From positions 124,001 to 188,000 of the forward strand of contig NZ_FOSK01000004.1 in assembly GCF_900114245.1 (NCBI RefSeq): 64,000 bases of DNA. Direction: 5' to 3'. Source of the stretch: Pseudovibrio ascidiaceicola (GTDB taxonomy: Bacteria; Pseudomonadota; Alphaproteobacteria; Rhizobiales; Stappiaceae). Positions within the stretch are counted from its first letter, which is position 1, and each line of letters begins with the position of its first letter. A program made the translations under genes and the position numbers. The notes below the pieces were generated by a model. The model was not told the DNA's origin. It worked only from the letters and a program-made list of their open reading frames with translations, and did not search any database. Below, piece by piece: positions 5,958-56,002 of the stretch.

Positions 5958-6824
5958 TCTCAAATACTCCAATCTCAAATACAGGGGCTCAAAGCACCTC
6001 TACGAAGCGAACCTCTGCATACAGCCGCCATGGTATATCCTTCTGGTGGCAGATTAATTTCGGCCTACATTCCAACCCAATATTTTACAGGAATGCCATA
6101 GGTTCTTTGAGAGACTCATCCATCCAGCGCGTCTGTCCTCTCAACACTATCAGGATTTCTACTGAGCAGCCTCAACCTGTGTCCAGAGGCGGTTGGTTAA
6201 ACACCGCATTTTTGGAGGAAATACGGTGGTTTTATACAGAATTTCGATAAGTGCCCTAGGGAACACTTAGCAGCGGCGGCCTAAAACTTCTTTAGTTGCG
6301 TAGATGCATCTCGGGGCATTGCAAACCTTAGGTTTGCGACAATCTATTAGAATCAAAGGTTTTTATTGAGACCAGTGATTCCAGCTCCATTCTCAAAAGC
6401 CCTGAAAACATCTTCATCACATTGGTCACATCAATGGCTGATTATCTGAAGTGCCATTAGCTGTCTTGGAAGCCTGCAAAACCACATCATGTAATCAGGC
6501 CTTACAGGTTCCCTCCAACCAGCCAGGAAACAAGAAAGCGGTCTGTTCTCAATGCCATAGCTTAGTATCACCCCCAAAATATAACCTTGAGTAAGTGATG
6601 TAATTATCTGCGAACATAACGTAGATTTAAATTCAAAATATTTGAAGAGGTGATGGAATTGAACTTCCACAAAACAACATAATTTACGACTTGAGCTGAC
6701 CTCTGCTAAACTACTTTTCCAACCAGAAGCAAGCTGGACCTTCTAGCAGCCATAAAGAGCTGAATTACTTTTCATGAGTGAATGATTGCCATAACACTTG
6801 GCAGCAAACCCAATTGGAAGTCCT
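5958..6824. other. Divergent intergenic region potF / glutamine synthetase-like gene
   Basis: About 870 bp without a convincing gene. It must hold the promoters of potFGHI (minus) and of the gamma-glutamylputrescine synthetase-like gene (plus). The half nearer the latter is AT-rich. A 79-codon minus-strand frame at 6431-6670 has no recognisable homology or good ribosome-binding site. I could not identify an operator with confidence. Confidence 0.5.
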
Positions 6825-34535: not shown

Positions 34536-34758
34536 CGGAAAATTCAACTCAAACAAGATTGGCGTATTTTTTACGAATATAGTCATTTGAGCCAGTTTTT
34601 TACAACCGGGAAATTCTCCAGATTACGTGAGCAGGCGAAAATCCTGTCATCACCCAAGACAGCTTGCCGAGGCACCCCTCATGTAAGCTGCTTTAAAATA
34701 AGTATTTTTGGTGCTCGACTCCCTAATTGAGAGCATCCTTGCAGATTTGGAGAAGTAC

Positions 34759-35172
34759 ATGTCCCCACGCGCACTCGAATATTCCCCAGCAGACCCAAAG
34801 CTGGCACTCTCGCATTTCCGTTCAATCCTGCAGTTCGAAACAGATTGCTCTGATGTGCAAGCAGATCTGGCAGATGGCACTGCAGAGTTTGTTTTGCTTG
34901 ATGTTCGCGGTGCTGCCCGCTTTGCGAAAGGACACGTGGATGGTGCGATCTGTCTGCATCACCGCGATCTGACTGAAGCGAACCTTGCCAAGTGGCCAAT
35001 GGATACTGTGTTTGTCGTCTATTGCGCTGGGCCGCATTGCAACGGGGCAGACAAGGCCGCCTATAACCTCTCCCGCTTGGGACGTCCGGTGAAGATTATG
35101 CTGGGCGGTATGACTGGCTGGATCGATGAAGGCTTTGAGCTGGTTTCCTCGAAAGCTTTACAGCCCGCTTAA
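34759..35172 (+). CDS. Single-domain rhodanese-like protein
   Basis: A 137-residue rhodanese fold protein, a cytoplasmic sulfur carrier or sulfurtransferase. FVLLDVRGAARFAKGHVDGAICL is the N-terminal signature and VVYCAGPHCNGADK holds the catalytic cysteine with a second Cys five residues on. GWIDEGFELV is the C-terminal motif. Start at ATG 34759, six bases after GGAG, not the upstream TTG. Divergent from ftrA, which probably controls it; the inducing compound is unknown. Confidence 0.82.
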   Translation: MSPRALEYSPADPKLALSHFRSILQFETDCSDVQADLADGTAEFVLLDVRGAARFAKGHVDGAICLHHRDLTEANLAKWPMDTVFVVYCAGPHCNGADKAAYNLSRLGRPVKIMLGGMTGWIDEGFELVSSKALQPA

Positions 35173-35584: not shown

Positions 35585-35959
35585 ATGCACCCTACGGAAG
35601 ATTGGTTTTCTTTGAGCACAAGGCGCAATCGAAGCAGTTATATTTTTGCTACCGTGATGCTAAATTTATTCTTGGCTATAGTTTTTTCAGCTTTGTATTT
35701 TTTTGAAGCTTCATATAGCTCAGGCCTATTCATTGCAGCAACCTTCGTAGTCCTATATGCGCTCGCAAATTTTACTTTGACAGCACAAAGGCTTCGAGAT
35801 TTCGATGTTTCTGGCTGGTTAGCTCTTCTGTGGATACCAATTATTATTTTGCCTAAACCATTTTCACTAGCCGCACTCTTAGCCGGTTTCATCATTCTAG
35901 CGACACTACCGGGGACAAGAGGCGCCAATAGATACGGACCAGATCCTCTTTCACAGTAA
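35585..35959 (+). CDS. DUF805 family membrane protein
   Basis: A 124-residue inner-membrane protein with three to four helices. AQRLRDFDVSGWLALLWIP is the conserved DUF805 segment, and LPGTRGANRYGPDPL is the usual C-terminal signature. The first residues (WFSLSTRRNRSSYI) match the family's F-x-x-x-G-R-x-x-R-x-x-Y opening, with Thr-Arg in place of Gly-Arg. Function unknown. ATG 35585 is preferred to a GTG one codon earlier. Likely co-transcribed with the upstream small membrane gene. Confidence 0.72.
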   Translation: MHPTEDWFSLSTRRNRSSYIFATVMLNLFLAIVFSALYFFEASYSSGLFIAATFVVLYALANFTLTAQRLRDFDVSGWLALLWIPIIILPKPFSLAALLAGFIILATLPGTRGANRYGPDPLSQ

Positions 35960-35977
35960 ATATTAAGGTGACCCTCA

Positions 35978-36135
35978 TAAAAAAGGCACCGAGGTGGGAG
36001 GATACCTCGGTGCCAAACAAAGCAGGCATAAAAAGGCCGATTGGGAGGGGAGGTACGGCCTTTAAAATCGTCGGGGTAAGACAACCTGCCTTGAAACAAG
36101 GGAGACCCACCAAGCAATGGAAACGGGTCACCCTT
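35978..36135 (-). ncRNA. Candidate trans-acting small RNA with anti-Shine-Dalgarno loops
   Basis: On the minus strand two strong hairpins follow each other. The first is AAAGGCCG / CGGCCTTT (36032-36039 with 36056-36063), loop TACCTCCCCTCCCAAT, then UUUUU. The second is GGCACCGAGGT / ACCTCGGTGCC (35985-35995 with 36004-36014), loop ATCCTCCC, then U6 at 35979-35984: a textbook terminator. A third small stem CCTTG/CAAGG lies upstream at 36089-36101. Exposed CCUCCC loops are the signature of alphaproteobacterial sRNAs that mask ribosome-binding sites (alpha-r14/NfeR1 and 'cuckoo' RNAs). No open frame fits. The 5' end is a guess. Confidence 0.5.
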
Positions 36136-36752
36136 CAGTTGTCCGCATAGTGATATGCAGATAATCCCTTTTCAGGACTTATTGTTATTTTGGTAATACT
36201 GACTGCAAAGCACTCAGTACTTAATGACGCCCTGTTAAACCAGTGTTCTTATTGCTATTGAAGGTATCAGGATCTTGTTATCATCAGGTTGTCAGAGATG
36301 GTGAACAAACACTTAGCCGACACACCTGCAGAGAGACGCGGCCTAACGGCTAATTGAGGTGTAAACAGGGCAAAATACGGCTTTTCCATGGCGCATGGCC
36401 GTCAGCTTGTCGCAGTGAAAGCGAGAGCAACCACAATGGCTTACAGTAAATTGCGATTTTTATCTGCTTTAACTGGCAACACAAAGAGTAATTGCAAATA
36501 ATTGACAAGCTTACAGATCACAAAAATCGATTTTTGATAAAAAATTATGGCTAGATGAAATTTATTTTCGAAAACAGCAAATACAAGTGATCTGCTCAAA
36601 CCTTAACAATTTGGCTCAATCTGGAATCATTGACTCCTTCCTAAATACATGCGTCAACTATCTTTACGTTGTTTAAGGGCAGGCTTGCGAAGTCTTTTGA
36701 AGCGGTGTTTGCGTTTAAGACGGCCCCGAGACAACGTGGGAGGGGGTTCATT
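36136..36752. other. Intergenic region upstream of the liv operon
   Basis: About 615 bp without a gene. It would hold the promoter of the candidate minus-strand sRNA at its left end and the liv operon promoter at its right, where the DNA is AT-rich (36,440-36,620). No operator recognised. Confidence 0.4.
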
Positions 36753-37955
36753 ATGCATAAATTACTAAGGGCCGCGGCAGTTAGCCTGGCGGCCAGCGCG
36801 TTTGCGCTTTCTGTTTCTTCAAATATTTCCTCTGCGGAAGAGCCAATCAAGATCGCCCATGTCTATGGTAAAACCGGTCCCTTTGAGGCCTATGCCAAGC
36901 AGTCTCATGTGGGTTTGATGATGGGGCTGGAATATGCCACTGGCGGCACAATGGAAATTGACGGCCGCAAAATTGAGGTCATCGAAAAAGACAGCCAGCT
37001 CAAGCCGGATATCGGACGTGCCATGCTGGCCGAGGCTTATGGCGATGATGAGGTTGATCTAGCAATTGGGCCGGTCTCCTCTGGTGTTGCCTTGGCGATG
37101 CTCTCAATTGCGGAGGAATACGAGAAGCTTCTGATCGTGGAGCCTGCCGTTGCTGACAGCATCACTGGCGCCAACTTCAACCGCTACATCTTCCGCACAT
37201 CGCGGAATTCCTCTCAGGATGCGATTGCGAATGCTGTTGCCCTTGGGCAGGACGGTGCTTCTATTGCCACTCTGGCGCAGGATTATGCGTTTGGGCGTGA
37301 TGGCGTGGCTGCGTTCCGCAATGCAATTGAAAAGACCAATGCCAAACTTGTGTTTGAAGAGTACGCGCCAACGGACACCAAGGACTTCACCGCGAGTGCC
37401 CAGCGTATCTTTGAGGCACTGAAGGGTCAGGAGGGACGCAAGTTCCTGTTTGTGATCTGGGCTGGTGGCGGAAACCCGCTGGCGAAAATCAACGCGATGA
37501 ACCCGGAACGTCATGGGATTGAGATTGCAACAGGCGGCAATATTTTGGCAGCTCTGAAAGCCTATAAGGCCATGCCGGGCATGGAAGGCGCGACCTACTA
37601 TTACTACGAGATCCCTCAGAACCCAGTGAATGACTGGTTGGTGAAGGAGCATAAGGCTCGTTACAGCTCACCGCCGGACTTCTTTACGGCAGGTGGTATG
37701 GCGGCTGGCATTGCGGCTGTTGAAGCGATCCGCAAGGCTGGCTCCACGGATACGGAAGAGCTGATTACTGCGATGGAAGGCATGGAGTTTGAAGGGCCGA
37801 AGGGGCTGATGAAATTCCGCGCAGAGGATCATCAGGCATTGCAGTCCATGTACCACTTCAAGATCCGCGTGGACCCTGAGGTTGAATGGGGCATTCCTGA
37901 GCTGGTGCGTGAACTCAAAATTGAGGACATGGATATCCCAGTTCAGAACCAGTAG
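36753..37955 (+). CDS. Branched-chain-amino-acid-type ABC substrate-binding protein
   Basis: Periplasmic type I binding protein, 400 residues. A signal peptide (KLLRAAAVSLAASAFALSVS) precedes IKIAHVYGKTGPFEAYAKQ, the family's opening strand. Conserved parts include GPVSSGVALAMLSIAEEY, YIFRTSRNSSQDA and LAQDYAFGRDG. Ligand unknown: this branch includes amide, urea, aromatic and short-chain carboxylate binders. I start at ATG 36753, behind GGGAGGGGG. First gene of a six-gene unit with a BASS carrier and livGFHM. Confidence 0.85.
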   Translation: MHKLLRAAAVSLAASAFALSVSSNISSAEEPIKIAHVYGKTGPFEAYAKQSHVGLMMGLEYATGGTMEIDGRKIEVIEKDSQLKPDIGRAMLAEAYGDDEVDLAIGPVSSGVALAMLSIAEEYEKLLIVEPAVADSITGANFNRYIFRTSRNSSQDAIANAVALGQDGASIATLAQDYAFGRDGVAAFRNAIEKTNAKLVFEEYAPTDTKDFTASAQRIFEALKGQEGRKFLFVIWAGGGNPLAKINAMNPERHGIEIATGGNILAALKAYKAMPGMEGATYYYYEIPQNPVNDWLVKEHKARYSSPPDFFTAGGMAAGIAAVEAIRKAGSTDTEELITAMEGMEFEGPKGLMKFRAEDHQALQSMYHFKIRVDPEVEWGIPELVRELKIEDMDIPVQNQ

Positions 37956-51867: not shown

Positions 51868-53313
51868 ATGTCCTGGTTTCTCTTAAGTATTGGCCTGCTG
51901 TTCGGCGGCTATTTTATCTATGGCATGTTTGTCGAGAAGGTTTTCGGGATTAAGCCCGCACGCCAGACACCTGCCCATGCACATACAGACGGCGTCGATT
52001 ATGTGCCGATGTCCACCAAGAAGGTCTATCTGGTTCAACTGCTGAACATTGCAGGTGTTGGACCGATTTTTGGTCCGATCCTTGGAGCTCTGTATGGTCC
52101 AGCTGCGATGCTCTGGATCGTTTGTGGCTGCATCTTTGCAGGCGCAGTGCATGATTACTTCTCCGGCATGCTGTCCGTTCGCAACAAAGGGCAATCCGTC
52201 CCCAACCTTGCCGGTAAGTACCTTGGCAACGGTGCGAAGCACTTCATGAACATCTTTGCAATTGTTCTGCTTTTGCTCGTGGGTGTCGTGTTCGTGTCTG
52301 CTCCGGCAAGCCTGCTCGGCCGCCTGACTGGTGTTGATGTAACCATCTTCCTAGTTTGCATCTTCGCATACTACCTAATCGCCACCATCGTTCCTGTCGA
52401 CAAGATCATCGGGCGCTTCTACCCCTTCTTCGGCGCATTACTGGTGTTTATGTCTGTGGGCTTGACGGTCGCTTTGCTGCTATCCAGCGAACACACCATG
52501 CTGCCAGGTGTTGAAGTTGGCGATTTCTTCCAGAACCTGAACCCGAATGACATGCCACTGTGGCCTGCTCTGTTCATCACTATTGCTTGTGGTGCGATCT
52601 CCGGCTTCCATGCCACGCAGTCCCCTCTGATGGCCCGTTGCATGGAAAATGAGGAAAATGGTCGCTTCGTCTTTTACGGTGCGATGATCGGTGAAGGCGT
52701 CATCGCGATTATCTGGTGCGCAATTGCTCTGTCCTTCTTCGGCGGTGTTGAAGGCCTTGCAGAAGGCATGGGCGGCAATCCTGCGAACCTGGTTTATGAA
52801 GCATCCAACGGTCTTTTGGGCGCATTTGGTGGCTTCCTTGCGGTGCTCGGCGTGATTATTCTGCCAATCACTTCTGGCGATACTGCATTCCGCTCAGCGC
52901 GCCTGATCCTTGCTGAGTTCTTCAACATGCCGCAGAACCAGATGCCAAAGCGTTTGCTGCTGGCGATCCCGCTGTTCGTTGGAGGAGCACTCCTTACTCA
53001 GGTGGATTTCGGCGTGATCTGGCGTTACTTCGGCGTCGCCAATCAGGCAACTGCCGCACTGATGCTTTGGACTGCAGCTGCCTACTTGCTGCGCCACAAC
53101 AAGCTGCATTGGATCTGCACTATACCGGCAACCTTCATGACCACCGTTGTTGTGACCTTCCTGCTGAACTCCACCAAACTTGGGTTTGGCCTGCCAATGA
53201 CGGTCTCCACCATCGGCGGCATCCTCGCAGCCCTGCTGATTGCCTCAGCAGTCTGGGTGAAGGTGAAGGGTAAAGTCGTCGACCACGAAGACGTGCTTGA
53301 ACCTGGCGAGTAA
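51868..53313 (+). CDS. cstA: CstA-family carbon starvation protein / pyruvate transporter
   Basis: Inner-membrane carrier of 481 residues with about 13 helices, the shorter form of the family (E. coli CstA and BtsT are about 700). Signature pieces are LNIAGVGPIFGPILGALYGPAAMLWIV, FAGAVHDYFSGMLSVRNKG and CGAISGFHATQSPLMARCMENE. Members import pyruvate or peptides with protons. A BtsSR-like system upstream and its predicted binding sites point to pyruvate. GAGGAAGAAAG precedes the ATG; a strong terminator follows. Confidence 0.87.
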   Translation: MSWFLLSIGLLFGGYFIYGMFVEKVFGIKPARQTPAHAHTDGVDYVPMSTKKVYLVQLLNIAGVGPIFGPILGALYGPAAMLWIVCGCIFAGAVHDYFSGMLSVRNKGQSVPNLAGKYLGNGAKHFMNIFAIVLLLLVGVVFVSAPASLLGRLTGVDVTIFLVCIFAYYLIATIVPVDKIIGRFYPFFGALLVFMSVGLTVALLLSSEHTMLPGVEVGDFFQNLNPNDMPLWPALFITIACGAISGFHATQSPLMARCMENEENGRFVFYGAMIGEGVIAIIWCAIALSFFGGVEGLAEGMGGNPANLVYEASNGLLGAFGGFLAVLGVIILPITSGDTAFRSARLILAEFFNMPQNQMPKRLLLAIPLFVGGALLTQVDFGVIWRYFGVANQATAALMLWTAAAYLLRHNKLHWICTIPATFMTTVVVTFLLNSTKLGFGLPMTVSTIGGILAALLIASAVWVKVKGKVVDHEDVLEPGE

Positions 53314-53336
53314 CCCTCCCTCCGCTCGCCAAAGCA

Positions 53337-55792: not shown

Positions 55793-55867
55793 AACTCCAT
55801 ACAGGTGCCCTCTCTACCCCAGCTATATCCGGTTGCGTTCCTGTGGTTTTCCGGTTAAGAACCGCTT

Positions 55868-55955
55868 GACCTCGGGGTGCGCGTATTTGTCGTGCTGAGA
55901 TGCTTTAGTGGCGAACCCGTTGAACCTGAACCGGCTAGAACCGGCGGAGGGAAGG
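55868..55955 (+). promoter_or_regulatory. TPP riboswitch (THI element) upstream of thiBPQ
   Basis: The conserved blocks appear in order: CTCGGGGTGCGC, GTGCTGAGATG, GAACCCGTTGAACCTGAAC, CCGGCTAGAACCGGCGG and AGGGAAG. Thiamine pyrophosphate binding would lower thiBPQ expression. The thiB start codon lies about 47 bp after it, and its GGAGG site is outside the core, so control could act on translation or transcription. Confidence 0.93.
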
Positions 55956-56002
55956 GTACCGGTTTCATCCATCCTTGCCCTCTCGCCGCAATGGAGGATG
56001 AC

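Follow-up and report, generated by a model that had tools for sequence, protein, structure and literature searches.

Which product does the minus strand encode in the 793-nt gap between two plus-strand genes of Pseudovibrio ascidiaceicola, a species of a marine genus that is often sponge-associated? The gap lies in the 64-kb stretch of DNA that was analysed as a whole (the window), and an earlier note had described two minus-strand hairpins with pyrimidine loops in it, the last one a terminator with U6. All of these elements were present on inspection. Anti-Shine-Dalgarno (aSD) hairpin 1 (36063-36032, minus strand) reads AAAGGCCG, loop TACCTCCCCTCCCAAT (loop 1, 36055-36040), CGGCCTTT, while aSD hairpin 2 (36014-35985, minus strand) reads GGCACCGAGGT, loop ATCCTCCC (36003-35996), ACCTCGGTGCC, followed by TTTTTT, the U6 at 35984-35979. 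A terminator scan and covariation assign the latter hairpin (P6, 35979..36014, minus strand) as an intrinsic terminator with a stem of 11 bp, which the scan lists on the minus strand only. The 171-nt stretch folds with -68.9 kcal/mol (z -5.8), and 0 of 200 shuffled sequences were equally stable. A scan for hairpins with CCTCC in the loop and a stem of at least 8 pairs returned five in the 64-kb window, with the sole close pair at this locus; 100 dinucleotide-shuffled windows contained 0.41 such hairpins on average (maximum 5) and 0 close pairs. Further single CCTCC-loop hairpins of the window are located at 53304-53331 (plus strand), overlapping the end of a reading frame, and at 6202-6228 (minus strand). 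The window also harbours a TPP riboswitch on the plus strand (55863-55969; 69.5 bits, above the gathering score).

The structured region is longer than first described. The earlier note had set its limit at 36135, but covarying hairpins run on to 36220, giving a minimum extent of 242 nt (35979..36220, minus strand) with the 3′ end set by the terminator. Barring processing, the RNA is probably longer than the 90-160 nt that had been expected. The fold of positions 35977-36222 (246 nt) has a z-score of -7.8. On the minus strand the 5′ part comprises the hairpins H1 (36196..36220), H2 (36164..36178), H3 (36142..36161) and H4 (36098..36135), with an A-rich linker, AAU-AAC-AAU-AAG (36178..36189), between H1 and H2. 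The closed domain (36018..36093, minus strand) consists of stem P5 (CAAGGCAGG/CCTGCTTTG) around a 4-bp P5a and aSD hairpin 1 (P5b).

DNA matches to the locus were found in 10 of 61 genomes, that is in 10 of the 16 genomes of the genus (the own genome included) and in 0 of 45 outside it. With R1, a covariance model built for the 3′ part, an eleventh copy was recognised among 87 genomes of the family (G013, E 1e-8), about 50 nt from the end of a gene for an HI0933-like flavoprotein. This gene is present in all 87 family genomes, and inspection of the same site in 20 more genomes revealed the RNA beside it in G008 and G012. The refined model R3 gave 13 matches with 67.6-134.4 bits, all in Pseudovibrio, the next score being 30.5 bits. 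This family search was run with stricter filters, which lose weak matches; no RNA copy was recognised by R3 in G001, G011 and G014 among the 87 family genomes. In 71 genomes of six other genera R3 yielded weak matches in 8 (23.6-29.1 bits, E 0.002-0.04); in G013 it gave one more weak match in addition to the main one. Two weak R1 matches, L119 (19.8 bits) and L100 (14.1 bits), have no aSD loop and were dropped. Beside the flavoprotein gene of G014 and G001, the loci L101 and L103 share a conserved stretch, GGGACGAGCAGTCAATTTA ... CCGGGTCTTAAACAACAGCCCG, which by eye is free of aSD loops and occupies the position of the RNA in other species. At three loci of other genera (L105, L106, L113) strong terminators with TTCCTCCC loops face the flavoprotein gene in convergent orientation and, judged by eye, seem to follow small protein genes; P5 is absent from them, so they were not counted as the RNA.

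In 13 of 13 carriers the RNA and the flavoprotein gene share a contig and converge, at a distance of about 30 nt to 2.4 kb; in the window this constant neighbour (TIGR03862; 32302..33555, plus strand) lies on the convergent side. The identified genes on both flanks are on the plus strand. Divergent from the RNA is a gene for a livK-like periplasmic binding protein (Peripla_BP_6; 36753..37955, plus strand), followed by genes for an SBF-family transporter and two urea/branched-chain-type ABC ATPases. Within the roughly 3 kb compared for each of the ten close loci, the livK-like protein is encoded upstream of the RNA in all ten and a rhodanese (34708-35172, plus strand) downstream of it in nine. 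Over all 13 carriers, the livK-like gene adjoins the RNA in ten and is absent beside it in G008, G012 and G013. The livK-like homologues of these three genomes and of G001 lie elsewhere in the genome, and no RNA copy was seen in the approximately 1.5 kb before them. The DUF805 gene (PF05656; end at 35959, plus strand, convergent with the RNA) had been taken as an unusual setting. It is an incidental neighbour, because it occurs beside the RNA in only one of the ten close loci, namely this window, and the same count applies to the 88-aa plus-strand frame without Pfam match between the rhodanese and DUF805 genes.

Comparison of the copies reveals that the stems of the 3′ part change and the loops stay. 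Alignment A8 (12 sequences, 11 distinct) covers this part and leaves out the G005 locus, because a second match there (L016 946-1002) adds a plain terminator with the loop TTTCTTTTCT. Two-sided changes occur in 19 of 33 pairs of A8 (shuffle mean 5.5, 0 of 500 shuffles as high), and 96.3% of the cells pair. They affect 7 of the 10 pairs of P5, 2 of 4 in P5a, 6 of 8 in P5b and 4 of 11 in P6, where every cell is paired. Inclusion of the G005 locus and an extra row (A7; 14 rows, 13 distinct) resulted in 20/33 pairs. Both alignments were fitted to the covariance model. A plain alignment of the ten close copies (A5) has two-sided changes in only 3/33 pairs; it is the three distant genomes that contribute the covariation signal of the 3′ part. 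As a check, G008, G012 and G013 were folded without constraints, and all form P5 with the aSD hairpin inside, plus the aSD terminator. According to the predicted pairing, the CCUCC of loop 1 is present and unpaired in all 13 genomes. The terminator loop retains CUCCC in all 13 and the full CCUCC in 11. The earlier note had named relatives without compensatory stems and conserved CCUCC loops as an observation that would speak against its proposal; this check did not refute the proposal, as 13 of the 16 genus genomes carry the RNA and all 13 retain CCUCC in loop 1 and CUCCC in the terminator loop. Replacement of the stems across the genus with retention of the aSD loops and of the 3′ fold points to selection on the presentation of the loops.

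The 5′ hairpins were evaluated in alignment A6 (10 sequences, 9 distinct), in which 12 of 37 pairs of H1-H4 have two-sided changes (shuffle mean 6.2, 0 of 500 as high) and 92.7% of the cells pair. Further pair types in A6 are not unusual, since 67 of 500 shuffles reach the observed value. H1, which also appears in single-sequence folds, is the weakest helix (two-sided changes in 4/11 pairs, 84.8% of cells paired); the values are 1/5 pairs and 95.5% for H2, 2/8 and 97.2% for H3, and 5/13 and 95.7% for H4. RNAalifold was applied to seven orthologues after three near-duplicates were dropped, with 60 column shuffles and one shuffle distribution shared by the strands. It gave z -10.7 for the minus strand versus -5.1 for the complement over the middle hairpins, -15.3 versus -10.6 over the 3′ 269 columns, -8.4 versus -7.0 for the aSD part alone, and -1.2 versus 0.0 for an upstream control. 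We conclude that the locus very likely specifies a conserved, structured RNA on the minus strand. A covariance model of H1-H4 (R2) did not recognise G008, G012 and G013, and its best E beyond the close copies, 0.6, was in a genome without the RNA. Hence, the 5′ part is conserved in sequence in the ten close genomes only. By eye, four hairpins and an A-rich linker are found in the 5′ part of G008 and G012, and G013 has a different set of 5′ hairpins.

In the nine distinct sequences of the linker, seven of the eight A columns are invariant and all four third positions vary. The chance of such an (AAN)4 pattern is about 0.01 for a fixed phase and 0.03 for three phases, in a stretch that was chosen after being seen. 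ARN repeats are the ligand of the distal face of Hfq, as stated in an excerpt of PMC8121710, and the 3′ end of the RNA is closed by a U-run. The pattern suggests that the linker is an Hfq-binding site.

Upstream of the RNA, a further conserved block (36225..36440, strand not assigned) has a strong match in the same 10 of 87 genomes. It was considered both as a piece of the RNA and as a plus-strand riboswitch, but neither reading was adopted, and the block is not included in the RNA. Its alifold z-scores are -2.0 (minus strand) and -5.3 (plus strand), with a z of -0.4 for the single plus-strand fold. Broken cells including gaps amount to 29/420 (minus) and 42/540 (plus), and two-sided changes were found in 4/42 pairs (minus) and 6/54 pairs (plus). 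An Rfam scan of the block returned only a chance match to SNORD2, and a short plus-strand frame noticed by eye was rejected, since it ends early in G015 as well as in G005 and is shifted in G003. The block is possibly a promoter or regulatory region, or another RNA. In a promoter search (sigma-70, alpha consensus and nfeR1-type) no candidate exceeded the shuffle level, and the nearest promoter-like site upstream on the minus strand is one of 4 per kilobase versus 1.3 expected. In the stretch that separates the RNA from the livK-like gene, a dyad-like motif pair, TTGACT ... ATGCGTCAACTA (plus strand, about 36625-36660), is kept in close orthologues; a regulator of the transporter operon may bind there.

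Does the RNA belong to a known family? The layout had been likened to alpha-r14/NfeR1 and to the cuckoo RNAs. CIN1/cuckoo RNAs are alphaproteobacterial sRNAs that are grouped by structure and have aSD loops. Of this comparison the general type, an sRNA with aSD loops and a terminator as last hairpin, stood up, but neither membership in alpha-r14 nor a CIN1/cuckoo-type locus did. The covariance search with the Rfam alpha-r14 model, proposed by the earlier note as a check, gave 43 bits (E 1.3e-6 in 601 bases) versus a gathering score of 58.8, and the gathering-level Rfam scan of the window returned no ar14 match.

The match with RF02344 leaves room for the reading that the RNA is a diverged true member of alpha-r14, in which one aSD hairpin would have disappeared from the NfeR1 lineage and a 5′ domain been added; we consider this possible but rather unlikely. 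The likeness to alpha-r14/NfeR1/Smr14C2 includes aSD loops on sequence-hypervariable stems, an aSD terminator hairpin, several copies per genome and predicted transport targets, as far as the cited portions of PMC10746234 and PMC7143759 describe them. True relatives of alpha-r14 are common in the family: matches to ar14 at E 0.01 occur in 85 of the 87 family genomes (above the cut-off in 61), and sub-threshold ones elsewhere in the own genome. In another genus, a weak R3 match (G035:C1:594780, 28.1 bits) falls on the site of an ar14 match. Against membership, the score is below gathering and the RNA occupies a distinct syntenic site. Only two aSD hairpins are found where alpha-r14 has three, none of H1-H4 being one, and P5 closes over one of the two. 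The exact motif CCUCCUCCC of the alpha-r14 loops is absent from both loops, which read UACCUCCCCUCCCAAU and AUCCUCCC (in the RNA, ACCUCCCCUCCC and UCCUCCC). In addition, the RNA has at least 242 nt, in contrast to 123 nt for alpha-r14/NfeR1, and possesses the extra 5′ domain, the closing stem and an ARN-type linker, whereas NfeR1 is described as Hfq-independent. Model R1 scored only 17.3 bits (E 0.005) at the ar14-like locus on contig C23, and the ar14 search up to E 1 also matches 3 of 14 control genomes, none of them above the cut-off. The best fit to the nfeR1-type promoter CTTAGAC-N17-CTATAT upstream of H1 was 9/13, which 184 of 200 shuffles matched.

The own genome has multi-hairpin aSD loci on contigs C23 and C27. 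L001 (G000:C23:102709-102856, minus strand) and L003 (G000:C27:53293-53530, plus strand, adjoining prmA) contain about four hairpin loops with TCCTCCCA each, compared with three aSD loops in canonical alpha-r14. Pairs of CCTCCCA within 18-48 nt occur 12 times in the genome, the RNA locus included, versus 0 for the reversed pattern. The weakly ar14-matching L005 (E 0.011) and L006 (E 0.327) lack a clear aSD hairpin, so they were not counted as aSD loci.

AbcR1/AbcR2 (alpha-r15, RF02345) resemble the RNA in having two aSD motifs and an A/U-rich Hfq region (cited portions of PMC3712013 and PMC7143759). They differ from it in length (114-120 nt) and in their location beside lsrB, and no ar15 covariance match was listed at the RNA locus up to E 5. 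An AbcR-like locus next to a LysR-family gene, L004 (G000:C27:190053-190189, plus strand), has sub-threshold scores for both ar14 (33.4 bits) and ar15 (31.6 bits). The CcsR1-4 RNAs of Rhodobacter are cut from a transcript that contains a DUF1127 gene (excerpt of PMC10253847); a Pfam scan found no DUF1127 among the eight neighbouring proteins of the RNA. The sibling sRNAs SisA-D of Caulobacter and MmgR (alpha-r8) share an aSD-type motif, UUUCCUCCCU in SisA-D (excerpts of PMC12559287 and PMC7143759). It is an internal single-stranded stretch in SisA-D, unlike the hairpin loops of the RNA, and lies in the first loop of the 77-nt MmgR. A literature search by title found no publication on Pseudovibrio sRNAs, and the founding alpha-r14/cuckoo papers could list the locus. 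Taken together, the RNA is likely an anti-SD sRNA, and by analogy it would work like the alpha-r14 and AbcR sRNAs.

For an anti-SD sRNA, targets can be predicted from the complementarity of its loops. The ribosome-binding site of the livK-like gene, GTGGGAGGGGG (36736..36746, plus strand), contains a 9-nt perfect complement of loop 1. In a ranking by loop-to-RBS duplex energy the gene takes place 1 of 50 window genes with -21.1 kcal/mol, versus -17.4 for the next; this ranking covers a single window with mechanically chosen starts, and any strong SD is favoured in it. In the genome, 20 sites of the form GGGAGGGG-N3-10-ATG were found versus 6 for the reversed pattern. Eighteen of the 20 precede frames of at least 150 aa, and six of these 18 are transport components, namely TctB, LysE, two ABC ATPases, a solute-binding protein and the livK-like protein. 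In Sinorhizobium an aSD loop of AbcR1 pairs with the livK ribosome-binding site and silences it with Hfq (excerpt of PMC3712013). NfeR1 silences binding-protein mRNAs and the ntrB mRNA via three aSD motifs (excerpt of PMC10746234). The sequence of the RNA is compatible with Hfq binding and livK silencing of the AbcR type, and the livK-like neighbour is its plausible leading local target.

Alternatively, the loops might serve as a general decoy that binds G-rich RNAs broadly, or might themselves be the target of a sponge RNA. They are indeed generic complements of SD sequences, several aSD loci exist in the genome, and Caulobacter has a sponge for aSD sRNAs according to the cited part of PMC12559287. 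The siblings with aSD motifs studied so far, as covered by the excerpts of PMC3712013 and PMC10746234, silence defined mRNAs instead, and the livK-like site with its 9-nt complementarity has the top score in the window. We therefore regard a decoy or sponge function as improbable.

There is little to recommend the view that the locus is a mere terminator, or pair of terminators, of a neighbouring gene with accidentally C-rich loops. A strong terminator is present, and those with TTCCTCCC loops accompany the same flavoprotein gene at the three loci of other genera. Nevertheless, eight helices extend over the 242 nt with at least one compensating pair in each, the loops are kept in every carrier, none of the shuffled windows had a close pair, and the T-run is on the minus strand only, with the identified genes of either flank on the plus strand; this makes termination as the only role highly improbable. 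A small minus-strand protein gene is hardly credible, as the open frames that exist in the window (e.g. 159 aa, 36117-35638, or 79 aa, 36131-35892) cross the terminator into the DUF805 region that is special to one of the ten close loci, and one-base length differences in loop 1 and elsewhere break the reading frame between species. No conserved frame with a synonymous bias was seen.

We favour the interpretation that the locus is the gene of an RNA of about 240 nt or more whose two aSD loops block ribosome binding to mRNAs, and hold it with good, if not full, confidence. The RNA would start within the 793-nt gap and end at the terminator hairpin at 35979. Its loops, presented on the closed 3′ domain and on the terminator, would pair with purine-rich SD sequences of mRNAs and thereby block ribosome binding, probably in a redundant way similar to that of NfeR1. 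Stability and Hfq loading would most likely be the role of the 5′ hairpins and the (AAN)4 linker. The livK-like transporter gene, which is read away from the RNA, would be the likeliest target nearby, and further targets would belong to transport and metabolism. Since the exposed loops match ribosome-binding sites, the RNA is probably a brake on protein production, and with the livK-like gene as likeliest nearby target the locus may link an uptake operon with a brake of its own.

More tentatively, and with somewhat more doubt than trust, we propose an sRNA family specific to Pseudovibrio that joins a structured 5′ domain, which includes an Hfq ARN site, to a closed aSD domain and an aSD terminator. 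In 10 of 13 genomes the RNA is divergent from a neighbouring livK-like operon, whose ribosome-binding site is its best match within the window. If this holds true, an uptake operon would carry its own broad-range translational brake. Anti-SD sRNAs are one of the means by which Alphaproteobacteria tune nutrient uptake, and the RNAs of the families considered above are short and have one to three aSD motifs. The locus offers a natural series for asking why only some aSD sRNAs are equipped with an Hfq-type site and a scaffold.
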